From: Mycobacterium sp. 155
GTDB taxonomy: Bacteria; Actinomycetota; Actinomycetes; Mycobacteriales; Mycobacteriaceae
Direction of reading: 5' to 3'
DNA: 64,000 nt
Assembly (NCBI RefSeq): GCF_000373905.1
Contig: NZ_KB892705.1
Location: forward strand, 496,001 to 560,000
In this document: positions 35,559-64,000 of the stretch, piece after piece
Numbering within the stretch: the first letter of the stretch is position 1
How the letters are laid out: every line of letters starts with the position of its first letter
Program-made: the position numbers and the translations under genes
The notes under the pieces: generated by a model
The model's database searches: none
What the model saw: the letters and a program-made list of their open reading frames with translations, nothing else
Told to the model about the DNA's origin: nothing

Positions 35559-36866
35559 TCAATGTCCGATGAGGTTCAGGACCTGTTCAGCCGCATTCTC
35601 GCCACTGACGAACGCTTCGTCGGTCCATTGATATCCCCACTCTCCGTACCGACCACACCACGCGATCCCGATGTCCGCTAGATAACCGTGCACAGTTTCG
35701 AGAGCCGCGGCCCGGTCGAGATCGAAGATGATGTTTGCGTAAGGGATGTGCAGCGTATTCGCGAAGATGATTCGGTCGGATTCGCGCAGGATGCCGCATT
35801 TCCTGAGATCGCGGAGCACCGGCTCGATCAGACTGTCCGGACTGCGGTCCAGCGGCCGGTACTTGGCCGAGAAATAACATTCAGCCTGCAGGCTGCCGCA
35901 ACCGGTAGGTGCGTTATTCGGCGAGAGTAGGTGTGGCGTACTAAGCCTGGTGAACGTTATCTCGCGGTCGTAGTAGTACGACCAGTGGGCGTCGAGGAGG
36001 TCCGCACGATCGACACCGACGTTGACGAGCACCACCTCGGTGCAGGCGAGGCGGTCTGTCGCGTCGAGCACGTCAGGTGGTGTCCCCTCGATCATCGGCA
36101 CCAGTGTCTTCAGTGGGATGGAGGAGATGAGGTGCGTGTAGTCGATGCGCTGCCCGTTACGGAACGTAAGTAACCTGCGCTTGGGGTCCACCGCGCTGAC
36201 CTCGTGGCTGGTTCTGACATCGGCATCCTGGGCGAACCGGCGAAGATAGGCCGCGAATCCACCGCGAGTCGGGTAACGGAAATAGTCCACGTAATGGGTG
36301 TGGGGAGTGTTGGGCCCCAGTGCACCCCGCAGAACTTCGTCGAGGCTGGGTCGGTAGAACCGGGGCCCCAGCCAGTCCGTACTCATATTGTCAGCGGTGG
36401 TTGTGTGGTACTTGTATGCGTACTCCATCGGAAAGGTCTCAGCGAAGGTCTTGCCGAATGCCGCGTAGAGCCATTCCTGGTAGTTCTTGAATTTACGCGC
36501 CGGCTCGTCCTGCACGGCGACGAAATCCTTGATGACGTCGACCACCAAGTCCTCGGGCAAACCGTGCAGATTGACTTGTGCTGGATGCTTGATCCAATGG
36601 CCGCGCCAGAGATTGTTGATCTTTGCGTGCAAAGTCTCGTACGCACCATCGATATTGTCAGCCAATAACTCTTGGATCCGGGTATCGCTGGTGAAGGAAA
36701 CGTGCGGTCCCTCGTCGAACATGAAACCGTGCCACTCATGCGATGAGGTATGTCCGCCGTAGTGGGGCAGCTTCTCGAACATCACCGGTGACAGACCCGC
36801 CGAACGCAATCGATGTGACGCGCCGAACCCCGCCATACCGGATCCGAGGATCGCAACATTTGTCAT
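35559..36866 (-). CDS. FAD-dependent amine-oxidase-fold protein, UDP-galactopyranose mutase-like
   Basis: A 435-residue flavoprotein with an N-terminal dinucleotide motif (VAILGSGMAGFGASHRL) and FEKLPHYGGHTSSHEWHG, a pattern shared by protoporphyrinogen-oxidase-like proteins and UDP-galactopyranose mutases. The C-terminus has the FAD contact GRYGEWGYQWTDEAFVSGENAA. In polysaccharide clusters such proteins are often sugar-ring mutases or unknown redox enzymes; a sugar-nucleotide role is inferred from context only. Its ATG overlaps the upstream glycosyltransferase stop by 4 bp, so the two genes form a coupled operon. Confidence 0.75.
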   Translation of the reverse strand: MTNVAILGSGMAGFGASHRLRSAGLSPVMFEKLPHYGGHTSSHEWHGFMFDEGPHVSFTSDTRIQELLADNIDGAYETLHAKINNLWRGHWIKHPAQVNLHGLPEDLVVDVIKDFVAVQDEPARKFKNYQEWLYAAFGKTFAETFPMEYAYKYHTTTADNMSTDWLGPRFYRPSLDEVLRGALGPNTPHTHYVDYFRYPTRGGFAAYLRRFAQDADVRTSHEVSAVDPKRRLLTFRNGQRIDYTHLISSIPLKTLVPMIEGTPPDVLDATDRLACTEVVLVNVGVDRADLLDAHWSYYYDREITFTRLSTPHLLSPNNAPTGCGSLQAECYFSAKYRPLDRSPDSLIEPVLRDLRKCGILRESDRIIFANTLHIPYANIIFDLDRAAALETVHGYLADIGIAWCGRYGEWGYQWTDEAFVSGENAAEQVLNLIGH

Positions 36867-38074
36867 GGGTTAGCCGATCCTTCTAACTCGCTTTGCGGGA
36901 TGGTGCGATCGATTGACTCCGCGAGGTCGCTGAGCGCACGCTTGCGACGTTGCATTGCCTCAGTTTCCGGCAGTCCTACGGCGGACAGGACCTGAGCCCA
37001 GCGATAGACGTGGTCGTGACGGCGTAATGAGTTCACGACGTTGGTTTTGCTGATCCGTTCACAGCGAGTCGGATCAGCGTCCAATGTTGAGATGACAGCT
37101 GAGATCTGGTCGGAATCATCGGGGAGTGGGATGACCGCGTCCTCCCAGCCGAACCATTCGTGGAACGCCTGAGTGTCGGGAACATCGCCGACGAGGATGG
37201 CGCCACCGGCGGCGCCTTCGAAGTAACGAAATCCCAATTCTTGTTGGCCGCCGGTGCGTTCGGGATTATTGAACAATGCCAGATTTACCAGGAAGTACCG
37301 CGAACGCTTGATCATGTCCGCAAGTCGGTTGCGGTGCTCGACGTAGCTCGTGACTTCGGAATTCTTCACGGTGTCGTACATGTAGTAGAAGTCGTCTGTG
37401 GCTGCGATCCTGAGGAGTGCGTTGTGGGTCAGTTCCGGGCGGCGACCCATTGCATAGAAATCGATGACTCTCTCGGGCGCCGAGGGATACGGGCAAAATT
37501 TGAGAGCATCGGTAGAGGGCGGGATGTGGTGGCAGGGACGGCCGGTGGCCCGTGCCAGCGGCTCGGCAGTGCCCGCGTCGGCGACAAAAATGTGATCGAA
37601 GCGTTTGAGTAGATTGAGGAGATTCCCGAGGGCGGGAATGTCGGCAGCATAGATTTCTTCTATGTAGCACGCGGAGACTTTTGCCGCTGATCGCCACATT
37701 GCGCACGGAGCGAGTGCACGTAAGTCGGCCACTGATTCCGTGCTGAGGAAGACCAGGTCGTAGTGGCGGGACAGGCCGGCGGGCAGGCGCCGACGACCCG
37801 CGATTGGGCAAGCTTGTTCGAGCCGCAGGCTCAACCGCTGTAAGACCCGCAGCGACAGCTGCCGAACCTTACCCAGAATGGCCTGAAATAGACCTTCTGC
37901 ACCCTCGTGAGCGACCGAGCCGGAGGGGGCGATCACATCAACGTCGTCCACCGATGCGATGAGGTCTTCGAGTTCGTACTGTAAGCATCGCGAGATCAGT
38001 GGCGCGATGTCGCGGTTTGAGACACACAGAATCCGTGCACCCGGACTCTTCGTACTGAATCGGTAACGCCGCAT
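36863..38074 (-). CDS. Glycosyltransferase family protein (CgeB/GT1-like)
   Basis: A 403-residue soluble protein resembling the glycosyl transferases group 1 type with a CgeB-like C-terminus: VPDTQAFHEWFGWEDAVIPLPDD and GFRYFEGAAGGAILVGDVPD, the stretch where these enzymes bind the sugar nucleotide. The N-terminal half has RILCVSNRDIAPLISRCLQYEL and a HIFVADAGTAEPLA strand. There is no membrane segment. It is the first gene of the two-gene operon with the FAD protein, and its promoter lies in the 330-bp region shared with the divergent methyltransferase gene. Donor and acceptor are unknown. Confidence 0.72.
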   Translation of the reverse strand: MRRYRFSTKSPGARILCVSNRDIAPLISRCLQYELEDLIASVDDVDVIAPSGSVAHEGAEGLFQAILGKVRQLSLRVLQRLSLRLEQACPIAGRRRLPAGLSRHYDLVFLSTESVADLRALAPCAMWRSAAKVSACYIEEIYAADIPALGNLLNLLKRFDHIFVADAGTAEPLARATGRPCHHIPPSTDALKFCPYPSAPERVIDFYAMGRRPELTHNALLRIAATDDFYYMYDTVKNSEVTSYVEHRNRLADMIKRSRYFLVNLALFNNPERTGGQQELGFRYFEGAAGGAILVGDVPDTQAFHEWFGWEDAVIPLPDDSDQISAVISTLDADPTRCERISKTNVVNSLRRHDHVYRWAQVLSAVGLPETEAMQRRKRALSDLAESIDRTIPQSELEGSANP

Positions 38075-38404
38075 CTCACAGACTCCACACGTGGACTGCG
38101 CTCACGAGAGTAGTCATGCGACTGGTGGCTTTCATGGTGCGACAGCCAGGGGACGGGACGTTTGACATGTGCGAAACTCTCTTTGCTGGATACATCCGGC
38201 TGAGCCGAGTGTACCCAACGGGTTGATCTTGGTAGGCACCGTCGTCAAAGGGTAGTTTGGCAGCTTAAGCCACGCGCTGCGGATCTTATTGAAGCAAGAC
38301 GGCACGCCGTGTGCAGAGCAGAGGATAGTCAATGTAGATTCGCTAGCGGAATACTTGTCAACGTGCACGGTTGCGTCGTAGAGGTCGAAAGAGTGTTGTT
38401 GAAC
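38075..38404. promoter_or_regulatory. 330-bp divergent promoter region in the polysaccharide island
   Basis: Lies between the divergent glycosyltransferase (minus) and methyltransferase (plus) operons. No gene is supported; it is less GC-rich than the flanking genes. Both operon promoters should be here. I see no clear palindrome that would mark an operator. Confidence 0.5.
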
Positions 38405-39646
38405 ATGACTGAGCAGTCCACGTTATCGTGCCGGTTCTGCACACGACCCCTGAACCGGACGTTCGTTGACTTGGGAATGTCGCCATTGTGCCAGTCGCAC
38501 CTGGGGCCTGATGAACTCGAGCGTGGTGAGGAGTTCTACCCCTTGCACGTCTTCGTGTGTGAGGGCTGCCTGCTGGTCCAACTCCATGAGTACGTCCGAC
38601 CTGAGGCGATATTCACCGAGTACGCGTACTTCTCCTCCTACGTCGACACGTTGCTGCGATACGCCGAGGAATATGTCGAGGAGGTTGTTCCACGGTTTCG
38701 GCTGAACTCGCGGAGCACGGTGGTCGAGGTCGCCAGCAACGACGGCTACCTTCTGCAGTACTTCGCGAAAAAGGACATACCGGTACTGGGTATCGAGCCC
38801 GCCGGCAACGTTGCAGAGGCCGCCGAAAGCAAAGGAATTCCCACTCGAATTCGGTTCTTCGGCGTGCGCACCGCGCAGGAGCTGGTTGACGAGGGTGTCA
38901 CAGCTGATCTCCTGTTGGGCAACAATGTGTTGCCGCACGTGCCCGACCTGCATGACTTCGTCGGAGGACTCAAGATCCTGCTCGCGCCGGGTGGCACCGT
39001 CACAATCGATTTCCAGCACCTGATGCGGATGGTTGAGGGCAATCAGTTCGACACGATTTATCAGGAACACTTTTCTTACCTGTCGCTCGCCGTGGTCGTC
39101 AGGCTCTTCGCACATCACGGGTTGACGGTCTTCGACGTCGCCGAACTCGGCACCCACGGCGGATCGTTACGGATCTTCGCCACCCACGCGGAGCGTGGTG
39201 TTGAGCCGGGGTCGCGCGTGGCCGATGTCTTGGCGGAAGAGGAACGCCGCGGGATGAACGAATTGGCCTACTACGCGAAGTTCGATGAGCGAGTAAAAGA
39301 AACCAAGCGCGGTCTCCTCGAATTCCTCATCGCGGCTAAGCGGGACGGCAAGTCGATCGTCGGCTACGGTGCGGCCGGCAAGACCAACACCCTGCTGAAC
39401 TATTGCGGCATCCGAACGGATTTCATCGACTACACCGTCGATCGCAACCCGTACAAGCAGGGGAAGTTCCTGCCTGGTACCCATATCCCGATTCTGTCTC
39501 CCGACCGTATTCGGGAAACTAGGCCCGATTATCTGTTCGTAGGTCCATGGAACCTGGTCGACGAAATCATGGAACAGACATCCTATATTCGCGAATGGGG
39601 TGGGCAGTGGCTGATCCCGATCCCCGAAGTAAGGGTTGTGCGCTGA
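38405..39646 (+). CDS. Sugar C-methyltransferase (zinc-binding, class I SAM-dependent)
   Basis: A 413-residue protein of the NDP-sugar C-methyltransferase type. It has an N-terminal zinc module (CRFC and CEGC), a SAM-binding domain (VVEVASNDGYLLQYF, with LGNNVLPHVPDL) and the C-terminal domain of the family (VGYGAAGKTNTLLNY, then PDYLFVGPWNL). Such enzymes methylate C3 or C5 of 4-keto sugar nucleotides, giving branched sugars. The ATG at 38405 is chosen since upstream codons are not family-like. It heads a plus-strand operon; the next gene's ATG follows 1 bp after its stop. Confidence 0.87.
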   Translation: MTEQSTLSCRFCTRPLNRTFVDLGMSPLCQSHLGPDELERGEEFYPLHVFVCEGCLLVQLHEYVRPEAIFTEYAYFSSYVDTLLRYAEEYVEEVVPRFRLNSRSTVVEVASNDGYLLQYFAKKDIPVLGIEPAGNVAEAAESKGIPTRIRFFGVRTAQELVDEGVTADLLLGNNVLPHVPDLHDFVGGLKILLAPGGTVTIDFQHLMRMVEGNQFDTIYQEHFSYLSLAVVVRLFAHHGLTVFDVAELGTHGGSLRIFATHAERGVEPGSRVADVLAEEERRGMNELAYYAKFDERVKETKRGLLEFLIAAKRDGKSIVGYGAAGKTNTLLNYCGIRTDFIDYTVDRNPYKQGKFLPGTHIPILSPDRIRETRPDYLFVGPWNLVDEIMEQTSYIREWGGQWLIPIPEVRVVR

Positions 39647-39647
39647 A

Positions 39648-40757
39648 ATGACTGATACCGCAGCGGATATCGTCGAGCAGGACCTTGAGTACATCACCAG
39701 TGAACTGTGCGAAGAGTTCGGCCGTATGGGAGGCAAGCGTCTACTCATCGTGGGGGGCGCGGGGTTTCTCGGCTACTACCTGGTGCAGGCCGTGCTGCAC
39801 TGGAACCGCACCGCCGGCAGACTGAACCCCATCCGGCTTACGGTGTACGACAACTATATTCGTGGAATTCCGGAGTGGTTGGCCGCGCTGGACGGCACTG
39901 CCCATCTCGAGTTGATTCGCCACGACATCACCGAGCCGCTGCCTGATGACATCGGTGATGTTCAATACATCGTGCACGCGGGTTCTATCGCCTCGCCGAT
40001 CTTCTATCGGCGTCATCCGATCGAGACGATGGACGCCAACATCGGCGGTCTGCGAAGGCTTCTGGACTATGCGCTGGGGCAACAGTCGTCATCACATCCA
40101 GTGGAGGGGTTCCTGTTCTACTCCAGCAGCGAAATCTATGGTGACCCAACACCAGAGAACATCCCGACACCCGAAACCTATCGAGGCAATGTGTCGTGCA
40201 CGGGACCGCGCTCGTGTTACGACGAGTCCAAGCGATTCGGTGAGACCCTTTGTGTGTTCTTTGCCCAGCAGCATGATCTTCCGATCACCGTGGTCAGACC
40301 GTTCAACAACTATGGACCCGGTTTGAAAATCACCGACAAACGAGTGTTGCCCGACTTCGCCCGTGACATCCTTTCCGGCCGCGACATCGTGATGAAGTCC
40401 ACTGGGACCCCGAGCCGGACGTTCTGCTATGTCGCAGACGCAGTCGTCGGTTATTACAAGGTGCTGGTGAAAGGTCGCCCCGGCGAGGCATACAACATCG
40501 GTGTCGAGACTCCGGAGATCACCATGGCTGAGTTGGCGGAGAAAGTAGTCGTGCTCGGTCATGAATTGTGGGGTTACACAGGCAAGGTGGTGCGCAATAT
40601 CGACGAGGACTACCTCGCCGACAACCCTGAGCGCCGGTGCCCGGTGATCGAGAAGGCCAGGAAAGAATTGGGTTATGCACCGAAAATTCTTGTTGACGAG
40701 GGGCTTCGGCGCTCACTGATCTGGTATGCAGGCAACCGCGACGCCGAGGATGCCTGA
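39648..40757 (+). CDS. NAD-dependent sugar-nucleotide epimerase/dehydratase, UDP-glucuronate decarboxylase-like
   Basis: An extended SDR of 369 residues with an unusual N-terminal helical extension before the NAD motif GGAGFLGYYL (about residues 35-44). The active-site SSSEIYG and CYDESKRFGE (catalytic Y-x3-K) are exactly of the UDP-glucuronate decarboxylase type, and VRPFNNYGPG and SRTFCYVADAV are typical too. With the adjacent UDP-glucose dehydrogenase it could turn UDP-glucuronate into UDP-xylose or a 4-keto pentose, a likely acceptor for the upstream C-methyltransferase. The stop overlaps the next ATG (TGATG). Confidence 0.82.
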   Translation: MTDTAADIVEQDLEYITSELCEEFGRMGGKRLLIVGGAGFLGYYLVQAVLHWNRTAGRLNPIRLTVYDNYIRGIPEWLAALDGTAHLELIRHDITEPLPDDIGDVQYIVHAGSIASPIFYRRHPIETMDANIGGLRRLLDYALGQQSSSHPVEGFLFYSSSEIYGDPTPENIPTPETYRGNVSCTGPRSCYDESKRFGETLCVFFAQQHDLPITVVRPFNNYGPGLKITDKRVLPDFARDILSGRDIVMKSTGTPSRTFCYVADAVVGYYKVLVKGRPGEAYNIGVETPEITMAELAEKVVVLGHELWGYTGKVVRNIDEDYLADNPERRCPVIEKARKELGYAPKILVDEGLRRSLIWYAGNRDAEDA

Positions 40758-42082
40758 TGCGCATCGCGATCATCGGAACGGGGTACGTCGGCCTGGTCAC
40801 AGGGGCATGTTTGGCCGAGAAAGGCCACGACGTCGTCTGTGTCGATTTGGACCGATCCAAGGTCGACGCAATCAACCGCAGTGAGTCCCCGATCTTCGAA
40901 CAAGGCCTCGAAGACCTGCTCGTGCGCAATGTCGGGCGTCGTTTGCGGGCTACGACAGATACCCGTGAGGCGGTATTGGGTTCCGAGATCACGTTCATCG
41001 CAGTGGGAACCCCGTTCGATGGCACGAGGATCGACTTGACGCACATTGAAGAGTCGGCCCGTGCGATCGGTGCGGCGTTGGGCGAGGCCCACGACTACCA
41101 CGTCGTGGTGGTAAAGAGCACCGTGATTCCGGGTACCACTGATGGCGTTGTGCTCCCGATTCTCGAAGCGGCCTCGGGTAAGCGCGCGCATGTCGATTTC
41201 GGCGTTGGAATGAACCCGGAGTTCCTCACCGAAGGGGAGGCCGTCGGAGATTTCATGCGGCCCGATCGAATCATCTGCGGTGGCATCGATGCGCGAACAC
41301 ATGCGGTGCTGGAATCGGTGTACCTGCCGTTCTCCGATGCGCCGTGTGTGCGAACGAACAACAACACTGCGGAGATGGTCAAGTACACCTCCAACGCGAT
41401 GCTCGCCACGATGATCTCCTTCTCGAACGAGATATCCAAATTGAGTGCGGCACTTGGCGGTATCGATGTCGTAGAAGTTATGGACGGGGTACACACGAGT
41501 CGCTATCTGACCACCGTGCTCGATGACGGCCGGCGGGTGGTTCCGCCTATCGCATCGTTCCTGATGGCTGGCTGCGGCTTCGGCGGAAGCTGTCTGCCCA
41601 AGGACGTCAACGCACTTATCGCACGAGGCGGGGATGCCGGAATTCCGATGCCGTTGCTGCAGTCGGTCATCGACGTCAACGAGGCGCAGCCTAACGAGAT
41701 GTTTCGGCTATTGGCCAAACATTTCGCCAGTCTCGCGGGGGTAAAGGTCGCGGTCCTCGGTTTGTCGTTTCGGCCCGACACCAGTGATACCCGGGAGTCA
41801 CCCGCCATTCCGATCGTGCATGGTTTGCGGGAGCGGGGCGCCATCGTGTCCGTGTATGACCCGGTAGCCGATGGGAGCCGGATCTTCGACGACGTCCGCA
41901 TCTGCGACTCACTGGTGAGCGCTGTGGCGGAGGCCGAGGCTGTCCTGGTCGTCACACGATGGGCCGAGTTCGAACATCTGCCGGCTGTGCTGGCTGAAAC
42001 AGGGCAGAACCCGGTTGTCGTAGATGGCCGGCGCATGTTGGACAAATCGGCCTTCGATCGTTACGAAGGCATCGGGCTGTGA
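40757..42082 (+). CDS. UDP-glucose 6-dehydrogenase / nucleotide sugar dehydrogenase
   Basis: A 441-residue NAD-dependent four-electron dehydrogenase that oxidises C6 of a nucleotide sugar to the uronate. Features are the N-terminal IAIIGTGYVGLVTGACLAE, GMNPEFLTEGEAVGDF, and the catalytic Cys279 in CGFGGSCLPKDVNAL, then LGLSFRPDTSDTRESPAI. It is more like UDP-glucose dehydrogenases than the AlgD-like enzyme at 46847-48220. It is coupled to the upstream SDR by a 1-bp overlap and to the next gene by a 4-bp overlap. It supplies UDP-glucuronate for the polymer or for the neighbouring decarboxylase. Confidence 0.9.
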   Translation: MRIAIIGTGYVGLVTGACLAEKGHDVVCVDLDRSKVDAINRSESPIFEQGLEDLLVRNVGRRLRATTDTREAVLGSEITFIAVGTPFDGTRIDLTHIEESARAIGAALGEAHDYHVVVVKSTVIPGTTDGVVLPILEAASGKRAHVDFGVGMNPEFLTEGEAVGDFMRPDRIICGGIDARTHAVLESVYLPFSDAPCVRTNNNTAEMVKYTSNAMLATMISFSNEISKLSAALGGIDVVEVMDGVHTSRYLTTVLDDGRRVVPPIASFLMAGCGFGGSCLPKDVNALIARGGDAGIPMPLLQSVIDVNEAQPNEMFRLLAKHFASLAGVKVAVLGLSFRPDTSDTRESPAIPIVHGLRERGAIVSVYDPVADGSRIFDDVRICDSLVSAVAEAEAVLVVTRWAEFEHLPAVLAETGQNPVVVDGRRMLDKSAFDRYEGIGL

Positions 42083-43455: not shown

Positions 43456-44373
43456 GTGACTGCGATCGCCCTGGGTACCCGCGTATTGGTCACAGGTGCT
43501 TCGGGTTTCATCGGATCGGGACTGCTCGACGAGTTGGTTCTACGAGGAGCGCAAGTCAGCGGTGTGTCTCGGCGAGCTCGGCCGGATACCGACGAAATAT
43601 CGTGGAGGAAAGTCGATCTCAGCGATGGAGATGCCGTCGATGCGCTCTTTGCGGAGATCGATCCACATCTTGTGTTCCATCTCTCGAGTTGGGTGTCGGG
43701 TCGGCAGAATCTCCACAACGTGCGCACGGCATTCACCGGTAACGTTGCGTCGGCGGTGAACGTGTTGGCGGCCGCCACCGCGTCAGGGTGCCAACGCGTG
43801 GTACTCGCAGGATCGATCGAGGAGCCGCGCCGCGACGACGGGGACGTTCCATCGTCGCCCTACGCCGTATCAAAGTCGGCTCAGACGCTCTATGCTCGAT
43901 TTTTCCGGGCCGTGTACCAGACGCCGGTCGTGGTGGCACGTATTTCCATGGTGTATGGGCCCGGTCAGCGTGAAACGGCCAAGGTGGTGCCCTACTCGAT
44001 TCTGTCCGGCCTCAATGGACGTGCGGCCGAGCTAGGCGGAGGAGCTCGCCCGATCGACTGGATATACATCGACGATGTGGTTCGAGGCCTGATCACCCTC
44101 GGCGAAGTATCGGGCATCGAAGGCCGAACACTGGATGTTGGTTCTGGATGTACAACCACTGTCGAAGAGATGGTCACCCGTATTGCGACGAAGCTGGACG
44201 CGCCGGCTCCAGTAATTGGCACACGTCCGGATCGGACTATGGAGATTGTCCGGTGTGCTGACCCGAGAGAAACGTACGTGTGCACTGGGTTTCGGCCACA
44301 GGTTGGCCTTGAGGCCGGTCTCGACGCCACGATTGCATGGTTTCGTACCGAGCTTGCGGCCGGTAGGTTCTGA
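43456..44373 (+). CDS. NAD-dependent epimerase/dehydratase (SDR)
   Basis: An extended SDR of 305 residues. NAD motif VTGASGFIGSGLLDEL, active-site LAGSIEEP and SPYAVSKSAQ (catalytic Y-x3-K), then ARISMVYGPGQR. The end has the substrate-binding fold. It probably epimerises or reduces the sugar nucleotide made by the upstream genes. The start is GTG at 43456, 27 bp after the DUF4910 gene. It is the last gene of this plus-strand operon and converges with a glycosyltransferase gene 28 bp away. Confidence 0.83.
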   Translation: MTAIALGTRVLVTGASGFIGSGLLDELVLRGAQVSGVSRRARPDTDEISWRKVDLSDGDAVDALFAEIDPHLVFHLSSWVSGRQNLHNVRTAFTGNVASAVNVLAAATASGCQRVVLAGSIEEPRRDDGDVPSSPYAVSKSAQTLYARFFRAVYQTPVVVARISMVYGPGQRETAKVVPYSILSGLNGRAAELGGGARPIDWIYIDDVVRGLITLGEVSGIEGRTLDVGSGCTTTVEEMVTRIATKLDAPAPVIGTRPDRTMEIVRCADPRETYVCTGFRPQVGLEAGLDATIAWFRTELAAGRF

Positions 44374-49908: not shown

Positions 49909-49935
49909 GGGCCGGGCGTACATATATACGCACGA

Positions 49936-52092: not shown

Positions 52093-52131
52093 GAATTTCC
52101 CTTCTGCCGAACTCGCAGCAGCGACAAGGTG

Positions 52132-55070: not shown

Positions 55071-55148
55071 ACTCGCTCCGACTGCCTGTCCATGGCGTTA
55101 GCTCCCTGTTCGAACGTTGATCGGACTAAAATCCGATAACGCTACCGT

Positions 55149-55177
55149 GTTGCCTCAGCAACGTTACTTTACGTTAC
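55149..55177. promoter_or_regulatory. Inverted and direct repeats between the amidotransferase and lyase genes
   Basis: The divergent gap contains a hairpin GTTGC-CTCA-GCAAC (55149-55162) immediately followed by two ACGTTAC direct repeats (in 55160-55177). Lying between two divergent starts, it is a candidate operator; no regulator gene is adjacent. Confidence 0.4.
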
Positions 55178-55267
55178 AGTCAGCATAGAGCAGGAACTCG
55201 TACCGCCGGGATCCCCGCAATATTGCGCCGGTCTCGATGAGTGGTGAGTTTGGGGGAGGAGCAGGCT

Positions 55268-56109: not shown

Positions 56110-58524
56110 TCAAAGTCGGCGGGGGTTGGCCCGGAGTCTGATCGCTGGGGCGACAGGCCGACCAGACAGTAATCCCTCGACTGAACCGGCATCGAGTGCA
56201 CGCCGATAGATCTCGAGCGCACCATGCGCTGCAGCTACGGTCTCGCTGATATCCCGATCGGTGTGGGCGGCGGAGACGACGAACGATTGGCCGAGTACCC
56301 CGCGCTGCAGCATTTCTTGCAGAAACAGAGTACGGAACGCTTGTGACGGTGTGCCGTCGGTACCTCGGGTGACAAAAATCAGACAGGATGGCCGACCCTG
56401 CGCGAAGACGAAATCGGCGATCCCATAGTCGGCGGCGGCGTTGTTGAACCCGGCGGCCAGCTGCGTTCCGATAGCTTCCATCCGCCCGATGGGATCGCCC
56501 TGGCGGTAGGCCTGTACTACGGCACGAAAGGCGGCTAGCCCTGTGGTCTCTGGTCCATGCGTGGTGGATAACAGGAACACACGATCACGGTCGGTGTTCA
56601 GGCCGCCGAGTTCCATCAGCTCCCGGCGACCCGCTAAGGCCGATATCGCGAATCCGTTACCCATTGCCTTGCCCCAGCAAGACAGGTCCGGGGTTACGTT
56701 GTAGACACTCTGAGCGCCACCGGTGGACCACCGGAATCCGGTGATCATCTCATCGAAGATCAGAACCGTTCCGTTGGCGTCGCACAGCGACCGCACCCCC
56801 TCGAGGAACCCTGGTTCCGGTTCCGCAAGGGCAGTGGCGGCCTCCATGATCACGGCGGCAATCGTGTCGGGGTTGCTGTCGAAGCATCGCTGCAACGATG
56901 AGAGATTGTTGTACTCGAATTGCACTGTGTGCTGACTGATGTCTGGTATGCCACTGGACATTGCCGTTGTGCCGATGAACCAGTCATCGACTGAGAAAAA
57001 CGGTTGGGTACAGAGCGCAAGCGCGTGTCGTCCGGTCGCGGCTCGGGCGAGCCGGATAGCGGCAGTGGTGACGTCGGATCCGTTCTTGGCGAACTTGACC
57101 ATGTCTGCGCCTGGCACAAGCTCGATGAAATCCTGTGCCGCTAGCAGTTCGAGCTCGGTTGGACGGGTGAAGCTCATGCCATCGAGCGCGGCCGCGTAGG
57201 CAGCGTCGACGACCGGCCGGTAGCCGTGCCCGAGCACGACGGAGCGCAAACCCATGCCGTACTCGACGAATTCATTTCCGTCGACATCCCAGACCCGGGC
57301 GCCATGACCACGGCGAAGAACCGGCGCCAGTCCCTCGGGGTACTGATCCGAACCGCGGGCGTACGTGTGTGCCCCACCGGGGATGAGTTCGTGAAGCCGG
57401 GATTGGAGCCGTTGCGATGCCGTGAACGTCCGCGCTCGGTGGGGCGAGGGCAACTCGGTCACCCACCGGCCGTCCAATTCAGGAAAGCGGCGACTGACTT
57501 CAGGTAGCAGGTCAGGCACCGTGAGCATCACCAAATCTGGCTGTGCTGCGACGAGTTCGGCTGGAGAGATGATGGGAATATCGGTGCCTGGCATTCGGCG
57601 GCCCTGTTTTTCCGGCGATGCGTCAGCAACGGCCGTCAACAGGCTGGAATCCAGCCGAGCCCGGCTCAGCAGGGCTACGGCGCGGGATGCGGCGCCGTAG
57701 CCGAAGACTTTCCGGCTGCCCGCCTGGCTTTGCAGCCAGTCGCGCAGCTCGGTTGCGTCTCGGTCGGCAGCGTCCTGCAGGGAGCGGAAGGCAGCAGCGG
57801 TCGTGATGGCTTTCGCGTGCTCCCGCTCGAGAATGGTCTGAACCGAGGGGTCTTGCGGAGTCGGGTCATCGCCGGGAATCGCTGCGATCAATACTGTTCC
57901 GCCGTACAGGTCGAATTCCCATACCTTGGCGACACCCAGCCCCACGCGACGCAGCAGATACCGTAGCGCTGTCAGTGAGTAGTACGCGAAATGCCCGTGC
58001 CGCAATGCATTCCATTGGCCGTGCTCGACGATTGTGAGGATCGAGTGGTATTGCAACAGCAACACGCCATCGGGATTCAGACACCGTGCGCGCTGGTGGA
58101 GCGCAGCGGCCTGGTCGGGTGCGTGCATGAGTCCGAAGCTGTCCAACACCAGGTCGGCGCGTTGGTCTCCCAGGGAGAATCCTCGTGAGGTGAGCAGCGG
58201 TAGCCAACTGCCGCCGTGCGGACTGCCGAACTCGAGTGCGGTCGTCCCGTGCAGCCAGCCGGTATCTTCGACCAGCCCGACCGCGGCGGCGGCCTGATCT
58301 CTGAGCGCCTGTGGCTCTATCCCTCGCGGTTCCTGCACGATGGTGTCGTCGTCGGCAAGCTGTGCGAGACCGCACCTTTCGCACAGGATCATCACCAGAG
58401 GGTGCGTCGATTCAGCGGGCAGTAGCGGCGCGTCGACCGGCGGGAAATAGTCCCCCGCCGGGACCGTCCCGAGGTCGAGGATGCGGTGCAACTCGCCATT
58501 GTTGCACCCACGGCAACGCCTCAT
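56110..58524 (-). CDS. Fusion of sugar C-methyltransferase-like and class III aminotransferase domains
   Basis: An 804-residue two-part protein. Residues 1-400 resemble the zinc-binding C-methyltransferase family (CRGC and CERC zinc pairs; VFGYGAASRAVALL and PDLVMLTVPDL in the C-terminal part), but the SAM loop is divergent (ALEFGSPHGGSWLPLL). Residues about 400-804 are a PLP class III aminotransferase of the glutamate-1-semialdehyde aminomutase type: LIPGGAHTYARG, VKFAKNGSDVTTAAIRLARAATG, LIFDEMITGF and the PLP lysine in CWGKAMGNG. The two activities would methylate and aminate the same sugar nucleotide. It is the last gene of the minus-strand operon starting at 61118. Confidence 0.83.
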   Translation of the reverse strand: MRRCRGCNNGELHRILDLGTVPAGDYFPPVDAPLLPAESTHPLVMILCERCGLAQLADDDTIVQEPRGIEPQALRDQAAAAVGLVEDTGWLHGTTALEFGSPHGGSWLPLLTSRGFSLGDQRADLVLDSFGLMHAPDQAAALHQRARCLNPDGVLLLQYHSILTIVEHGQWNALRHGHFAYYSLTALRYLLRRVGLGVAKVWEFDLYGGTVLIAAIPGDDPTPQDPSVQTILEREHAKAITTAAAFRSLQDAADRDATELRDWLQSQAGSRKVFGYGAASRAVALLSRARLDSSLLTAVADASPEKQGRRMPGTDIPIISPAELVAAQPDLVMLTVPDLLPEVSRRFPELDGRWVTELPSPHRARTFTASQRLQSRLHELIPGGAHTYARGSDQYPEGLAPVLRRGHGARVWDVDGNEFVEYGMGLRSVVLGHGYRPVVDAAYAAALDGMSFTRPTELELLAAQDFIELVPGADMVKFAKNGSDVTTAAIRLARAATGRHALALCTQPFFSVDDWFIGTTAMSSGIPDISQHTVQFEYNNLSSLQRCFDSNPDTIAAVIMEAATALAEPEPGFLEGVRSLCDANGTVLIFDEMITGFRWSTGGAQSVYNVTPDLSCWGKAMGNGFAISALAGRRELMELGGLNTDRDRVFLLSTTHGPETTGLAAFRAVVQAYRQGDPIGRMEAIGTQLAAGFNNAAADYGIADFVFAQGRPSCLIFVTRGTDGTPSQAFRTLFLQEMLQRGVLGQSFVVSAAHTDRDISETVAAAHGALEIYRRALDAGSVEGLLSGRPVAPAIRLRANPRRL

Positions 58525-58617: not shown

Positions 58618-59646
58618 TCAGGCATCTTGGGGGACCTGGCGTAACGATTCGTCGACGAGCCCGGCGTTGCGCAACGCCTCCAAACGCCTCAAGCGGGTGA
58701 ACTGGTTGAGGAAGGACTCCTCGGTCAGCCCGTATTCGGTATAGCGTTCGTAAAGTTCCGCAGCACCGGCAGAAACTGACCACTTGGCCTCGAACCCGAG
58801 GACCCGGCGGCTCGCGGAGAAGTCCACGCGGTAAGAACGCGGATCCGAACCAGTCTCACCGGTGACCACTACACGTGACCCGGGGACAACCCCTGCTACC
58901 GCATCGGCGATCTGTGCAACGGTGACGTTATTAGATTCGCATCCGATGTTGAGTGCAACTGACCGCACGCGGTCGGCAGGAGCATCCAATGACAGTAGGA
59001 AAGCCTGGGCGATGTCCCGGGCATGCACCAGCGGACGCCACGGAGTGCCGTCGGAAAGCACCCGGATGTCCCCGGTAAGGACCGCGTGCCCCACCAGGTT
59101 GTTGAGCACGATGTCGGCCCGCAGCCGAGGGGAGAATCCGAATGCGGTGGCATTGCGCAGAAAGACCGGACAGAAGTCGTCGCTGGCGAGTGCGACCAGA
59201 TCGTCTTCTACGCGGACCTTGCTTTCCGCGTAGGGAGTTAAGGGGCGCAAAGGTGCGTCTTCTCCGACCAATCCGTCCCCCGCGGCCCCGTACACCGAAC
59301 ACGTGGAGGCGTAGAGGAATCGGCTTACACCCGCGTGCTTGGCCAGTCGGGCGAGCCGGGTCGAGGCGTGGTGGTTGATGTCGTAGGTGATCTGCGGTGC
59401 CAGCTCGCCCAACGGGTCATTGGACAGCGCGGCCAAATGAATGACGGCGTCGAAGCCCTCGAGTTGATGTGGTGTCACATCGCGCAGGTCGACACGCAGG
59501 GTCGTGCAGGATGCGGGTTCGGGGCCCAACACACAGTCGGCGTAAAACCCGCAATCCAGACCGATCACCTCATGGCCTGCGGATTTCAATACCGGCACCA
59601 TGACTGTGCCGAGATAGCCCTGATGGCCTGTGACGAGTACCCGCAT
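58618..59646 (-). CDS. NAD-dependent epimerase/dehydratase (SDR)
   Basis: A 342-residue extended SDR: NAD motif VTGHQGYLGTVMVPVL, active site STCSVYGAAGDG and PYAESKVRVE (catalytic Y-x3-K), then FLRNATAFGFSP and RPLVHARDIAQAF. It is of the type seen beside sugar-1-phosphate nucleotidylyltransferases and probably dehydrates or epimerises the NDP-sugar from the cytidylyltransferase at 60306. It is followed 93 bp later by the methyltransferase-aminotransferase fusion. Confidence 0.85.
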   Translation of the reverse strand: MRVLVTGHQGYLGTVMVPVLKSAGHEVIGLDCGFYADCVLGPEPASCTTLRVDLRDVTPHQLEGFDAVIHLAALSNDPLGELAPQITYDINHHASTRLARLAKHAGVSRFLYASTCSVYGAAGDGLVGEDAPLRPLTPYAESKVRVEDDLVALASDDFCPVFLRNATAFGFSPRLRADIVLNNLVGHAVLTGDIRVLSDGTPWRPLVHARDIAQAFLLSLDAPADRVRSVALNIGCESNNVTVAQIADAVAGVVPGSRVVVTGETGSDPRSYRVDFSASRRVLGFEAKWSVSAGAAELYERYTEYGLTEESFLNQFTRLRRLEALRNAGLVDESLRQVPQDA

Positions 59647-59667: not shown

Positions 59668-60309
59668 TCAAATTTTCACGGTGAGCTTCTCGGCCGTGAA
59701 TGCTTCGGCATACACCGAATGGCATTGCACGCCACGGACTCTCGCCAGAGCGCGAAAGGCCTCCGCGTCGAACCAATCGTGACCGGCCTGCGACGGGTAG
59801 TGCTCGAGCAGCAGCCGGACCTTGTCGTCGACAGTCGGTGGCTCCAGCGGAAAGAATATGTTGGCACGCGGAGTGTCCGCCTCCCACTTCAGAATTTCGT
59901 AACCGAACAGCGCGTGGTTGCGAAACTCGGTCGGTAAGAGCTTCGCCAGTAGTCGGTGATCCTGGTGGGCGTCGGTGCGATTCGGACCAAACACAAATTG
60001 CGGTTCGCAGGTACGGCGAAACTCGTGCAGAGATTCTTTGATACGACCCCAGTGCTGGGGAGCGCGTCCGTCGGGAATGTCGAGCACGGTGACCTCGACA
60101 TGGCTGCCGGGGCACAAGGACGCGAGAGCTTTACGCTCTTCGGCCTCACGGACCCCGCCCGCGCCACTGAGAACCAGTGCGTGCACTCGCAGACCAGGGT
60201 GGCCGGCACACAATTGCAGCAGAGTGCCCCCCATGCCGATCGCGATGTCATCGCAATGGGCACCGGTGACCGCGATTTCGGTTAGGGAGCCCGCACTGAA
60301 CGTGATCAC
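59668..60309 (-). CDS. PIG-L family deacetylase
   Basis: A 213-residue zinc-dependent N-deacetylase of the PIG-L/LmbE family. The first metal motif appears as AHCDDIAIGMGGTL (usually HPDDE, so here the proline is Cys and the catalytic acid pair is retained as DD), and the second as AHQDHRLL. GTG at 60309 overlaps the cytidylyltransferase stop (GTGA). In a sugar cluster it would remove N-acetyl groups from an amino-sugar nucleotide or lipid-linked sugar. The longer open frame lies inside the upstream gene and is rejected. Confidence 0.83.
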   Translation of the reverse strand: MITFSAGSLTEIAVTGAHCDDIAIGMGGTLLQLCAGHPGLRVHALVLSGAGGVREAEERKALASLCPGSHVEVTVLDIPDGRAPQHWGRIKESLHEFRRTCEPQFVFGPNRTDAHQDHRLLAKLLPTEFRNHALFGYEILKWEADTPRANIFFPLEPPTVDDKVRLLLEHYPSQAGHDWFDAEAFRALARVRGVQCHSVYAEAFTAEKLTVKI

Positions 60310-61118
60310 GGGGTGTTTCCGATGGCAGCCGCCGAGATCCCATTCGGTTGCTCCCACACCATCCACGGCCGATCACCACGTCGGTATCTTTCGTCGAGTT
60401 CGGCCCGTTCTTTGAAGGTGTCGGCCGGTTTCCAGAACCCCTCGTAGCGGTAGCCGAAAAGGCGTCCCTCGCCAGCGAGCTTGCCGCACACGTCTTCGAC
60501 GAGATCTCCCCCGGGAGGCAGGTAGTCGAAGATTTCCTGGCTCAGCACAAAGAATCCACCGTTCTCCCAGATGGGCAGGTTGGATACCGGGTTGATGCTG
60601 CTGACGTACCCCGTTTCGTCGATGTCGACACAGTGGAACGACGACTGTGGCGGTACCACCATCATCGAGGCCGCTGCGCCGGACCGATGGAACCCAGCAA
60701 TCAACTCATCCATCGGTGCGTCGGTGAGCACGTCGGCGTAGTTGGCCAGGAAATACTGGTCGCCGTCCAACTGCGGACGTATCCGGCGTAAACGCTCACC
60801 GATTGCCGACTCGAGGCCTGTATCGACAAAGGTGATCTTCCAGTCGGCGATGTCGGAATGCATCAGTTTGATTTGGCCGCGGTGCATTACGAAGTCGTTG
60901 GACTCGGCTTCTTGGTAGGACAGGAAATAATTCTTGATGTGAGATGCACCATAGCCCAGGCACAGGATGAATTCACGGTGGCCGTAGTGGGCGTAGTAGC
61001 GCATCACATGCCAGATCAGTGGGCGAGGCCCCACCAGCTGCATAGGTTTTGGTACATCATCTTCGGCGCCGTTGCGCATACGCATCCCGTATCCGCCGCA
61101 GAACAACACCACTTTCAC
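60306..61118 (-). CDS. Sugar-1-phosphate cytidylyltransferase-like nucleotidyltransferase
   Basis: A 270-residue nucleotidyltransferase. VKVVLFCGGYGMRMRNG is the P-loop-like signature, PKPMQLVGPRPLIWHVMRYYAHYGHREFILCLGYGASHIKNYF matches glucose-1-phosphate cytidylyltransferase (RfbF) in its key residues (K-P-M, W-H, G-Y), and ENGGFFVLSQEIFDYL and GFWKPADTFKERAEL complete the fold. It probably activates a sugar-1-phosphate with CTP. The GTG at 61118 is chosen; an earlier open frame is not family-like. It is the first gene of the four-gene operon to the fusion at 56110. Confidence 0.84.
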   Translation of the reverse strand: MKVVLFCGGYGMRMRNGAEDDVPKPMQLVGPRPLIWHVMRYYAHYGHREFILCLGYGASHIKNYFLSYQEAESNDFVMHRGQIKLMHSDIADWKITFVDTGLESAIGERLRRIRPQLDGDQYFLANYADVLTDAPMDELIAGFHRSGAAASMMVVPPQSSFHCVDIDETGYVSSINPVSNLPIWENGGFFVLSQEIFDYLPPGGDLVEDVCGKLAGEGRLFGYRYEGFWKPADTFKERAELDERYRRGDRPWMVWEQPNGISAAAIGNTP

Positions 61119-61273
61119 TGCACACCCCCAGTGTGATCGTCGTTCAGCGCTGCTGATGGCTGCATTACGCGCAGTGGGCAACTGACGACTTCAACCCCGA
61201 CCTTCACTAGCCGCCAGTAAGTAATATTCTGTAAATAGAAGCCATATTTTGCAGCAAAGTCATAGTCTCTAGG

Positions 61274-61329: not shown

Positions 61330-62949
61330 TCAGGTCACACGAAATGTCGTGATCGGGTAGGCGCCGTCGGCGTCGCGGCCAGGCTGGGCGAGTTGCATCG
61401 GCGGATAGTCCATGGTGTGCGTCGCGTCAGGCTTGTGTTCGTGCCAGGCGACTCGCACCCGTACTGAGTAGTTGCCGCGGGGTAGGTTCCCGATCACCAG
61501 GTTGCTGTCGACGGTATGCGCAGCTGGGAGACCGTCGGCCTTCTCGAAGTGCTGATCGGCGACTATCGCACGCAGGTTTACCTGGCCGGTCACGGTGCGG
61601 ATTACCGTGCCGGTATCGGATAGGACGTCGAACTCTGGCTGCCAGTTCTCGTACGTGGGAGCCGAGCCGAAGTTGGTCCAGCGCAGCGGGATGCGTACGG
61701 GTGTGCCCGCAGTTGCTTGTATTGGCGGGCCAGCGGCGATTACCGCGTAGCGGTAGCCGCTGAATTTGTTGGCACGCGACCAGATCGTGAAGTCATCAGG
61801 CGACATGGGCTTGTTTGAGGACTGCGCAGGGAAACCGGTACTGGCAGTCATCGACACGTGGTAGTTGACGACGTCGCGCAGTCCGGTCAGATAGTAATCG
61901 GTGGTGCTGGTGCCCGGCGGGATCTGGGGAATCCATTCAGTCACGATTGGCGCGACCCTGTACCGGTTTGCGATGACCTGGTTGATCGGGTCATGGCTGC
62001 GCACGTAGTGTGAGTCACGCTGCGCCGCCCAGTCTGGTATTGGCGCGTACACGCCGAGCCCGTCTGCGCGGATGCCAACCAATTTTTTCCGGTTTTGCAG
62101 CAACGGACTATCGCGAAACATCTGTTTGACGATCTCCGGGTTTCCCGGAGCTGTGATTATTTGAGTATTCGGGAACGCTGCCAGGTTTGCGGCCACCAGG
62201 TACGCGATTGACTGCTTGGTGATGAATTGATCTCCGTATTGGCTGAAATAGCCAAGTTGGGCTTCACTGTCCGAGGGGCCGGGACCTGGTATACCGAGTG
62301 TGTTGCTCATGAAGGCGACATGATTCTCGCTGAAGTCGCCATAGCCGGACATCTCGAACAGTGCGATTCGTTCATCACGGTCATAGCGGTGACCCAGGGC
62401 CGTCAACAGGTCGGCGAAATACGAGAGATATGCCTCGTTGTTCCAGTCGGGGATCACATAGGTGATGCCGTCGTGGACGTAGTTTCGGGTCGCGCCGCTG
62501 ACCGATTGCAACCAATCGGGCACGGAGATGTCGGTGTTGTGTGGATAGGAGGTTTCACAGCACGAATTGAACGACGTGATGCGGAAACCGAAACGACGAC
62601 CGTGCTGTGCGGCCGCATCGACAGCCTCGTCCAGGGCGGTGAAGTCGAATTTTTCGCTGTCAGGGGCGTTGTGAGGCAATGTACGCGGGTCACGCGGCTG
62701 TAGAAGGCGCCAATCGATTCGAACGTTCACGTCATTGGTGCCTGGCCACGGTGGAAACTGTTGATTAGCCGTGCTTGCTTGCGGGAAAAGTGGGCTTAGT
62801 AAATTCTCGTATTGCCCGCGTAACGGATTGACGAGATCTGGACCTTCGAAGGCGGCGTAGCCGGATGCCAGGGTATTCGCGCTGGGCGCTGAACATGAGG
62901 CCAGCACGCACACGATTGCTACAGCGACGATCTGGATGCGTCGACGCAC
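61330..62949 (-). CDS. DUF4832 lipoprotein, glycoside-hydrolase-like
   Basis: A 539-residue exported lipoprotein: the signal MRRRIQIVAVAIVCVLASC ends in a lipobox with the acylated cysteine near residue 19. It resembles the DUF4874/DUF4832 families (TIM-barrel N-terminus with WRLLQPRDPRTLPHN, FGFRITSFNS, ALFEMSGYGDFSE; beta-sandwich C-terminus with RWTNFGSAPTYENW and GNYSVRVRVAW), found as extracellular polysaccharide-processing proteins. Catalytic acids cannot be assigned safely. The GTG start lies 31 bp inside the 3' end of the polymerase gene, so the two genes are co-transcribed. Confidence 0.75.
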   Translation of the reverse strand: MRRRIQIVAVAIVCVLASCSAPSANTLASGYAAFEGPDLVNPLRGQYENLLSPLFPQASTANQQFPPWPGTNDVNVRIDWRLLQPRDPRTLPHNAPDSEKFDFTALDEAVDAAAQHGRRFGFRITSFNSCCETSYPHNTDISVPDWLQSVSGATRNYVHDGITYVIPDWNNEAYLSYFADLLTALGHRYDRDERIALFEMSGYGDFSENHVAFMSNTLGIPGPGPSDSEAQLGYFSQYGDQFITKQSIAYLVAANLAAFPNTQIITAPGNPEIVKQMFRDSPLLQNRKKLVGIRADGLGVYAPIPDWAAQRDSHYVRSHDPINQVIANRYRVAPIVTEWIPQIPPGTSTTDYYLTGLRDVVNYHVSMTASTGFPAQSSNKPMSPDDFTIWSRANKFSGYRYAVIAAGPPIQATAGTPVRIPLRWTNFGSAPTYENWQPEFDVLSDTGTVIRTVTGQVNLRAIVADQHFEKADGLPAAHTVDSNLVIGNLPRGNYSVRVRVAWHEHKPDATHTMDYPPMQLAQPGRDADGAYPITTFRVT

Positions 62950-64000
62950 GGCACCTCGGCCCTTCCAGTATCCCCTGGTGGCAGGTCGCCATGGCGCGCG
63001 AGATACGCGACGACTGCGGCCATTGCGACAATAAGCCAGATCAATGTCGAAACCTGGACAAACCCACCCATATCGAGGATCGCGCTAGTGGCGATCACCA
63101 CCGCAATGGCGCCACTGATTCCGCCGCCGAGTTCCGCCACAACTGGAGATGGTGCTGCCGAGGCCCGAATCGCCAATACGATGGCAGTAATCAACACAAG
63201 GGCGTAGCAGATCAGGCCGAGGATACCGCCCTCCATCAGCCGGGAGAAGTATTCATTGTCAAGAACCGGCTGGTTGGGAACCGCCGGGTAGGTGCCCATC
63301 CCTGTGCCCACCCAAAAATGTTCCTGATAGTGGGTGAGCACGTAACTCCTACCGGTCGATCGCGATTCGATTGACGGGTCATCGGAAAACACGGCGAAAG
63401 AGGCGGCCAGAGCAGTGGCGATACGCAACTGCAGCAGCCAACCGGCCCCTACCGCAACAAGTAAGCCTCCCAGTGTCGCGGCCAAGCGGGTGACTCGCCA
63501 CCGCCAGCACATTACGATCGTTGCGGCCACCAAGCCGAGTACGACTGATCTTGACACTGTGGACAATGCCCCCAAGGCCACCACGCCGGTGCACAGTACC
63601 CACGGCCAGATCCGATCGTGTTTGGCACGGGCGCTGCCGATGACTCCGACGCCGATCGGTATCAGGATGGTCAGCACGACGGCGAGTTCGAGTGGATGCC
63701 CGGCAGAGCCTTGTGAGCGAACAATACCTTCGCGCATAAGGTCTTTGACCAGCATGAAATCGCTCGTTTTCAGGCCTGGCAGTTTGAAACTGGCGGCGAG
63801 ATCCAGCCCGGTAGCCGACTGGAGAAGCGCGAAACCGGAGCTCACTGCTCCACCCACCAGCAATCCCTTTAGTGCTAGTTGGACGTCGTCGGCGGTGGTA
63901 AGCAGCGACATGACCGCGCCGACCATCATTACCAGCCCAACGGTCACATAGTTGTACTGTCCGGAGAATTCAGCTGCTTTCGGTGTGAGGCCTGCGCCGA
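62919..64000 (-). CDS. O-antigen ligase/polymerase (Wzy-like) membrane protein, 5' end cut by window
   Basis: A polytopic protein, open to the right window edge; at least 360 residues are seen and the true start lies beyond 64000. It has around nine hydrophobic helices and the O-antigen ligase (Wzy_C) loop pattern: RSTGRSYVLTHYQEHFWVGTGMGTYP, followed by YFSRLMEGGILGLICYALVL. Proteins of this type polymerise or ligate lipid-linked oligosaccharide units outside the membrane. Its presence argues for a Wzy-dependent route. It overlaps the DUF4832 gene by 31 bp. The internal GTG at 63945-63947 is not taken as the start, since the frame continues upstream. Confidence 0.83.
   Translation of the reverse strand, partial: GAGLTPKAAEFSGQYNYVTVGLVMMVGAVMSLLTTADDVQLALKGLLVGGAVSSGFALLQSATGLDLAASFKLPGLKTSDFMLVKDLMREGIVRSQGSAGHPLELAVVLTILIPIGVGVIGSARAKHDRIWPWVLCTGVVALGALSTVSRSVVLGLVAATIVMCWRWRVTRLAATLGGLLVAVGAGWLLQLRIATALAASFAVFSDDPSIESRSTGRSYVLTHYQEHFWVGTGMGTYPAVPNQPVLDNEYFSRLMEGGILGLICYALVLITAIVLAIRASAAPSPVVAELGGGISGAIAVVIATSAILDMGGFVQVSTLIWLIVAMAAVVAYLARHGDLPPGDTGRAEVPCVDASRSSL

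Follow-up and report, generated by a model that had tools for sequence, protein, structure and literature searches.

The locus described here raises the question of what a mycobacterium could make with about 35 kb of polysaccharide genes, hereafter called the island, and whether these genes serve one product or two. The island lies in the genome of Mycobacterium sp. 155 (4.61 Mb, two contigs) and extends from position 35559 of the window, the 64,000-nucleotide stretch of DNA which was analysed (C1:496001-560000), to C1:566391, 6.4 kb beyond the window end (position 64000, C1:560000). We consider it, with a probability of about 0.68, to be a modular locus with switching cassettes, the product of which is an acidic heteropolysaccharide, either extracellular or capsule-like; the chemistry of this product, the order of the steps and the surface location are what we infer from the predicted gene functions. 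The island is a composite of modules which are also found separately: module 1 (35559-44373), module 2 (44402-48220), module 3 (48664-56083), module 4 (56110-61181) and module 5 (61330 to position 8391 of stretch L002, which continues past the window).

An earlier note on this DNA had proposed a uronate-rich, Wzy-dependent exopolysaccharide, and the predicted functions support an acidic polysaccharide with uronates, probably made by a route of the Wzx/Wzy type. The gene classes which it named between 35559 and 64000 are all present: four GT4-like glycosyltransferases, two nucleotide-sugar dehydrogenases, a decarboxylase-like SDR, a C-methyltransferase, an AsnB-type protein, a Hepar_II_III protein, two PF14099 lyases and a Wzy_C protein. 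The list was correct but omitted a mutase-like flavoprotein, a DUF4910 protein, a second C-methyltransferase fused to an aminotransferase, a PIG-L protein, a cytidylyltransferase-like protein and a DUF4832 protein. Both of the dehydrogenases which it called uronate-forming are there, one of them being of the GDP-mannose type (AlgD-like). Modules 2 and 3 contain the following genes:

44402..45592, minus strand, module 2: GT_b, a GT4 glycosyltransferase (PF13692/PF00534), the most conserved gene of the uronate module
45585..46823, minus strand, module 2: GT_c, a GT4 glycosyltransferase (PF00534, 141 bits; best NCBIfam model TIGR03088, 225 bits, cut-off 409)
46847..48220, minus strand, module 2: GMD (UGDH2), GDP-mannose 6-dehydrogenase-like (best PDB match AlgD, 1mfz)
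48664..49908, plus strand, module 3: PLa, predicted secreted polysaccharide lyase with CBM60 (PF14099, 120 bits; PF16841, 28.0 bits, cut-off 28.2)
49936..52092, minus strand, module 3: HepII, heparinase II/III-fold protein (PF07940, 152 bits; PF16889; profile match to heparinase III, E 3.8e-13)
52132..53271, minus strand, module 3: GT_d, a GT4 glycosyltransferase (PF00534, 105 bits)
53226..55070, minus strand, module 3: AsnB-type amidotransferase (PF00733, 351 bits; PF13537; TIGR01536 over cut-off; TIGR03108, 480 bits, cut-off 817)
55241..56083, plus strand, module 3: PLb, second predicted secreted lyase (PF14099, 114 bits; 58 % identical to PLa over the common part)

In comparison with PDB, GMD matched AlgD (1mfz) with 442 bits, and the next match, a UDP-glucose dehydrogenase, reached 255 bits. 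The catalytic loop PGF(A/S)(F/Y)GGSCLPKD was kept in 47 of the 49 loci with a GMD-type match. GMD is probably an enzyme of the AlgD type, which would imply D-mannuronate in the polymer.

The switching of a cassette was observed in Mycobacterium sp. 141 (G063; L159), which carries the island at the same site, from bcp to the M20 peptidase gene, with 95.0 % identity over window positions 33501-44377 and 93.6 % over 44370-48563 and 55915-72016. The block between these regions (48564..55914, 7.35 kb, blastn edges 48563 and 55915), with HepII, GT_d, AsnB and the two lyases, is replaced in sp. 141 by approximately 6.15 kb encoding on the opposite strand a different HepII (48 % identity) and GT_d (43 %), together with an open reading frame (ORF), the AMP-binding match of which is weak, and a fragment of a Mutator-family transposase (19.3 bits, cut-off 21). 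At the end of the replacement there are HepII fragments corresponding to window positions 51113-51234 (88.6 %), 51431-51634 (86.3 %) and 52011-52048, as well as a piece corresponding to 55156-55211 and the 55 C-terminal residues of PLb (94.5 %). Since these remnants are of the window type, the sp. 141 lineage formerly had the window-type HepII and PLb, and we infer that the other HepII entered in the same event in which the block was lost. The 40 kb fetched from the sp. 141 locus contained neither AsnB nor an intact lyase gene. The central blocks of these close relatives appear to differ much as capsule types switch in other bacteria.

On the left of the island, a large ORF occupies the position of fas and the M20 peptidase gene lies at 34143-35480; on the right, a lipoprotein-like ORF is followed by a gene for a GNAT protein and by bcp, an order of flanking genes which we take to be that of Rv2520c-Rv2524c in M. 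tuberculosis. When 30 of 59 bcp loci, including that of the window, were examined for an empty site, the M20 gene was at most 1.5 kb from bcp in 25 of the 29 other mycobacterial loci. Compared with this usual gene order, the island is thus an insertion. The G+C content of its three window pieces (0.592, 0.613 and 0.605) compares with 0.668 for positions 1-35480. The island genes are under purifying selection, with ratios of nonsynonymous to synonymous substitution (dN/dS) of 0.085-0.379 against sp. 141 for 21 of 26 genes, the other five being those of the swapped block. A search of 72,556 plasmid records with HepII gave 12 matches, all of less than 60 % identity and none covering 80 % of the query, and these gave no support to a recent plasmid origin.

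The earlier note had asked whether the island is patchily distributed, and it is: among 396 genomes of the genus, that of the window included, HepII was found in 25, GT_b in 37 (E<=1e-60) and GMD in 36 (E 1e-110). HepII occurred with GT_b in 24 genomes and with GMD in 21, and GT_b with GMD in 32 (Fisher p 1e-21 to 1e-37, uncorrected for kinship). At the level of the family, GMD of the window type was present in 17 of 201 genomes and 10 of 31 genera. A scan with HepII gave 76 named loci, including those of Mycolicibacterium, Nocardia, Rhodococcus, Williamsia, Gordonia, Pseudonocardia, Actinomycetospora and Geodermatophilus relatives, and the distant ones of Prevotellaceae, Muribaculaceae and Peptoclostridium. 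M. aurum, like sp. 141, has a relative. Within 10 kb of HepII in 58 of these loci (L107-L164), GMD and GT_b were each found 43 times (at least 45 % identity), AsnB 11 times, a PF02397-type gene 14 times and UGDH1, the other dehydrogenase of the island, once. The fetched stretches of 43 of 57 loci (the same set without L158) contained GT_b; among the 57, HepII had GT_b as its immediate neighbour with the same orientation in 9 and GMD as a neighbour in 22.

AsnB was distributed differently. Within the genus it was found (at least 59 % identity) in 3 of 23 HepII stretches vs 8 of 14 HepII-free stretches with GMD or GT_b (p 0.008, the stretches being unequal in length and kinship). A simple alternation of HepII and AsnB is not claimed, as Nocardia loci outside the genus hold both.

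PLa and PLb have N-termini of the secretion type with hydrophobic stretches, and the DUF4832 protein of module 5 also has a hydrophobic stretch; unlike these, the HepII sequence contains no signal peptide and no hydrophobic or membrane segment. Because HepII is kept with biosynthesis genes and is apparently cytosolic, it is probably a biosynthetic editor rather than a secreted lyase. In an alignment of HepII with 26 relatives (from the 30 first listed, without L107, L111, L127 and L167), N247, H249, Y302 and H455 were invariant in the 27 sequences and Y481 was conserved in at least 90 %. The spacings 302-455-481 (153 and 26) equal those of Y291, H444 and Y470, the catalytic residues of PL33 according to PMC11848413, the roles in HepII being assigned by spacing alone. 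The relevant sections of PMC11848413 and PMC8006597 describe a catalytic apparatus of this type as common to the alginate lyases PL17 and PL39 and the human C5-epimerase DS-epi1.

HepII could instead be an intracellular lyase for the removal or proofreading of lipid-linked intermediates with uronate. Among solved structures, it is closest to the heparinase III lyases, and PL17 and PL39 enzymes of the same fold act on the mannuronate of alginate, as stated in the sections on these families in PMC11848413. A cytosolic degradative enzyme kept with synthesis genes across phyla would however be unusual, and the same residues carry out epimerisation in DS-epi1 (active-site description in PMC8006597), so that the lyase role, a possible one, is considered on balance somewhat unlikely. 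C5-epimerisation is the first choice for HepII and lyase proofreading the second.

A tree was made of HepII proteins from 60 of 62 stretches (L155 and L156 were too short). Three of the 25 genomes with HepII are not in it, namely G305, where the match is split, and G303 and G390, for which there were no fetched stretches. The clade of the window consisted of 13 mycobacterial rows, 11 with a lyase gene in the stretch, the other two being stretches of 18 and 20 kb. In a second clade (Actinomycetospora), a lyase was present in seven of eight rows, weaker matches (34-37 %) being counted, and three Pseudonocardia rows, G098 and G136 had lyase matches at 28-30 %. Lyase presence tracked the HepII clades, with 6 changes on the tree vs a mean of 16.9 and a minimum of 11 in 500 shuffles; 51 of the 60 rows were used, since nine lyase-free rows with stretches shorter than 20 kb were dropped, and matches below 150 amino acids, including the relic of sp. 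141, were scored as absent. This pattern shows linked inheritance, not specificity. PLa, the only lyase compared with PDB, gave a weak match to glucuronan lyase (2zzj, E 1.8e-4). In G305 (C2:4529047-4532272), the HepII match is in two pieces approximately 1.1 kb apart.

The genes for polymerisation and export are in module 5, most of which lies beyond the window:

61330..62949, minus strand: DUF4832-like protein with an N-terminal hydrophobic stretch (PF16116, 24.6 bits, cut-off 29.2)
62919..64000, continuing to C1:560274 (L002:919-2274), minus strand: Wzy_C polymerase-like membrane protein (PF04932, 35.5 bits, cut-off 31.7; approximately 10 hydrophobic segments)
L002:2271-3077, beyond the window: Wzz-like protein (PF02706, 18.4 bits, cut-off 25.5; two end-placed hydrophobic segments)
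L002 approximately 3277-4350, beyond the window: GT_e, glycosyltransferase
L002:4344-5792, beyond the window: GT2_f, glycosyltransferase
L002:5789-7414, beyond the window: Wzx flippase (PF01943, 70.4 bits, cut-off 28.2)
L002:7327-8391, beyond the window: GT_g, glycosyltransferase

The Wzy function is a prediction, since the PF04932 family also contains ligases. The earlier note had proposed to look past 64000 for wzx, wzc/wzz and an initiating glycosyltransferase, and the flippase and a weak Wzz candidate are indeed there, but the island has no PF02397 initiating transferase. The genome has two PF02397 matches, which lie 2 Mb away from the island next to a second locus of the Wzx/Wzy type, and one of these transferases may act in trans. 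The note had also contrasted the gene set with the mycobacterial surface glycans studied so far and called Wzy/lyase/uronate combinations typical of Gram-negative capsules and O-antigens; the view that such gene sets are foreign to mycobacteria is not supported. PF02397 is present in 303 of the 396 genomes, so loci for polyprenyl-linked glycans are common in the genus, and of 30 other genomes, 7 have a relative of the island Wzx (6 of the 18 from the genus), which in five of them adjoins a PF02397 gene. Loci of the Wzx/Wzy type have moreover been studied in the actinomycete Actinoplanes (the locus descriptions in PMC13390465).

Several observations weigh against the acidic heteropolysaccharide considered above. 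In a search limited to PF02397, among the types of initiating transferase, none was found in the island, and the Wzz candidate is below the Pfam cut-off (18.4 vs 25.5 bits). Four HepII genomes (G136, G256, G303, which is 58 % complete, and G305) gave no match to GMD. Outside the actinobacteria, GT_b was found in 15 of 18 HepII stretches vs just 4 of 18 for GMD, so that HepII and GT_b form the pair which is conserved more widely. The flippases of most HepII loci have at best a distant resemblance to the Wzx of the island, being called by weak matches (23-34 %) to Wzx2, the flippase type of the second locus. In G013 (L238), modules 4 and 5 are accompanied by a PF02397 gene of their own, whereas HepII, GMD and GT_b are absent from the locus and were also negative in genome-wide searches of G013, and two products are thus possible.

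It is accordingly conceivable that modules 4 and 5 make one polymer and modules 1-3 another, by way of Wzx2, Wzy2 and PF02397 of the locus 2 Mb away. G013 and the flippases of the other HepII loci, which are closer to Wzx2, fit such a division, as does the content of the second locus itself (L035, L036; G000:C1:2595001-2632000): two flippases, a Wzy_C protein, two PF02397 genes and several glycosyltransferases. Antrihabitans cavernicola (L126) argues against it, having Wzx, Wzy, Wzz, GT_e, GT2_f and GT_g of the same types together with HepII, GMD and GT_b, and the whole gene set has stayed together in the window genome and in sp. 141. The parts therefore combine in one genome and stay separate in another. 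A division into two systems is regarded as unlikely, and one polymer from the window genes is the first choice.

The second locus also holds a gene for a polysaccharide deacetylase and one for a CBM60 protein, and adjoins accD5, Maf and accA3; in G225, the HepII locus itself is near Maf and accD5. G013 belongs to a set of mycobacterial loci of a recurrent type (L235-L241) with Wzx, GT2_f, GT_e, a cytidylyltransferase, PIG-L, a C-methyltransferase and PF02397, without HepII, of which no description was found in the literature searched.

The remaining genes are those of modules 1 and 4:

35559..36866, minus strand, module 1: FAD protein, UDP-galactopyranose-mutase-like (PF01593/PF13450; closest in PDB to UDP-galactopyranose mutase, 4dsg, with E 2.6e-29)
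36863..38074, minus strand, module 1: GT_a, glycosyltransferase (PF13524, 35 bits)
38309..39646, plus strand, module 1: CMT1, sugar C-methyltransferase (PF08484, 220 bits; PF08421)
39636..40757, plus strand, module 1: SDR1, UDP-glucuronate-decarboxylase-like (PF01370; best PDB match UDP-glucuronate decarboxylase, E 5.6e-45)
40757..42082, plus strand, module 1: UGDH1, UDP-glucose-6-dehydrogenase-like (TIGR03026, 398 bits)
42079..43428, plus strand, module 1: DUF4910/DUF2172/HTH_47 peptidase-like protein (PF16254, 366 bits; 3k9t, 'putative peptidase')
43456..44373, plus strand, module 1: SDR2, NDP-sugar epimerase/dehydratase-like (PF01370; best PDB match related to UDP-glucose 4-epimerase, E 1.3e-25)
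56110..58524, minus strand, module 4: C-methyltransferase/class-III aminotransferase fusion (PF08484 and PF00202; NF004856 over cut-off)
58618..59646, minus strand, module 4: SDR3 (PF01370, 146 bits)
59668..60366, minus strand, module 4: PIG-L-type protein (PF02585, 50 bits)
60306..61181, minus strand, module 4: glucose-1-phosphate-cytidylyltransferase-like (TIGR02623, 182 bits, cut-off of 300 not reached)

UGDH1 matched 3gg2 (277 bits), AlgD (274 bits) and UDP-glucose dehydrogenases (252-268 bits) in PDB, with no one type clearly favoured. The DUF4910 protein of the 3k9t type (42079-43428) is placed amid nucleotide-sugar genes. The fusion (56110-58524) joins a C-methyltransferase and a glutamate-1-semialdehyde-aminomutase-like domain in one frame of 804 amino acids, and its counterparts in G171, G154 and G170 are two separate matching pieces on opposite strands. 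The PIG-L frame of sp. 141 (L059, L060) has one in-frame stop relative to the window frame; this stop may lie in an N-terminus drawn too long.

Mycobacteria are known for surface glycolipids of the glycopeptidolipid and lipooligosaccharide types, and C-methylated and branched sugars would fit a pathway to such a glycolipid or oligosaccharide rather than to a polymer. The flippase, the Wzy_C protein, the Wzz-like protein and the two predicted secreted homologues of endo-type lyases speak for a polymer, and apart from the GNAT protein beside bcp, no acyltransferase or polyketide-synthase family was matched by the 30 ORFs scanned, which cover the island and its immediate continuation, so that a glycolipid is quite improbable. 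Two lyases and a heparinase-fold protein might also suggest an island for uptake and degradation of environmental uronate polymers. Glycosyltransferases, nucleotide-sugar enzymes, Wzx and Wzy predominate, however, HepII lacks a signal sequence, and the family-scan matches of the ORFs included none to families for the uptake or catabolism of uronate; on its gene content, the island is extremely improbable as a catabolic one, and this explanation was rejected.

For the preferred acidic heteropolysaccharide, the following route is proposed. GMD would provide GDP-mannuronate, UGDH1 and SDR1 would provide UDP-glucuronate and precursors of the UDP-xylose type, and the cytidylyltransferase, PIG-L, SDR, C-methyltransferase and aminotransferase module would provide a further sugar, probably branched or amino. 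The glycosyltransferases, with GT_b in a central role, would assemble a lipid-linked repeat, the start being made by a PF02397 transferase with its gene elsewhere in the genome. Cytosolic HepII would edit the uronate and AsnB may amidate uronates, uronamide formation being a possible function of the latter. Wzx would then flip the unit, Wzy would polymerise it and the short Wzz-like protein would set the length, and the predicted secreted PF14099 lyases, which travel with the HepII type, would trim or release the polymer. A narrower version, considered rather unlikely as a whole, is an alginate-like acidic capsule made by a route not seen elsewhere, with GDP-mannuronate entering the lipid-linked repeat, HepII acting as a C5-epimerase converting part of the D-mannuronate to L-guluronate before export, and HepII, one glycosyltransferase, the amidotransferase and matching secreted lyases forming an exchangeable cassette for switching of the surface type.

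If the proposed route is correct, some environmental mycobacteria carry a variable acidic surface polymer outside the usual picture of the mycobacterial envelope, which would matter for biofilms, for phage adsorption and for the passage of polymers across the mycomembrane. HepII in its pairing with GT_b, which extends from mycobacteria to Prevotellaceae and Peptoclostridium, would be a candidate, open to experimental test, for an enzyme which edits uronates in the cytosol. The earlier note had called the system undescribed; no mycobacterial Wzx/Wzy or uronate locus was found described in the open-licence literature searched, and nothing relevant was found there on a link of HepII with GMD or an epimerase. 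The modules also occur apart, and a single polymer is thus putative.

Among known systems, the Wzx/Wzy clusters wps and imp of the actinomycete Actinoplanes missouriensis, as presented in the cluster descriptions of PMC13390465, resemble the island in having flippase, polymerase, Wzz-like and glycosyltransferase genes in one locus with sugar-modifying enzymes interspersed. Gene order and host differ, Actinoplanes has sulfotransferases, and the main text of that paper is without the terms heparinase, uronic and asparagine synth. Acidic exopolysaccharides (EPS) are well known from Rhodococcus, related mycolic-acid bacteria (EPS review, PMC12786566, the main text of which links no genes to them and does not contain 'Wzy', 'Wzx' or 'gene cluster'). 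According to the composition data in PMC11767811, the uronate-rich EPS of Rhodococcus sp. p52 grown on acetate contained 25.34 % guluronic, 24.09 % mannuronic and 22.65 % galacturonic acid, which is a hint only to the product of the island, being known from the polymer and not from a locus.

The psc1 cluster of Rubrivivax gelatinosus, an exosortase-type (XrtA/PEP-CTERM) EPS cluster, codes for CapK, a Wzx, glycosyltransferases of group 1 and asparagine synthases of the wbpS type, and transposon insertions in several of these genes affected biofilm (cluster description in PMC3684757, in the text of which 'heparinase' does not occur). The island resembles clusters of this type in that the best NCBIfam models of GT_b and GT_c are XrtA glycosyltransferases and AsnB matches the XrtA amidotransferase model, all below the cut-offs. 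Membership of an XrtA system is ruled out, as a search for the exosortase family PF09721 gave 0 matches in the window's own genome.

Alginate biosynthesis is synthase-dependent and employs a beta-helix epimerase, whereas here there are flippase and polymerase genes and a heparinase-fold protein. Common to both systems are GMD of the AlgD type and the heparinase-like fold, which the fold comparison in PMC11848413 assigns to the alginate lyases PL15, PL17 and PL39. Dermatan sulfate epimerase 1 (DS-epi1), unlike HepII, is a Golgi enzyme acting on a GlcA polymer (enzyme description in PMC8006597); it resembles HepII in its heparinase-like fold and in an active-site Tyr, His and second Tyr, which correspond by motif and spacing.

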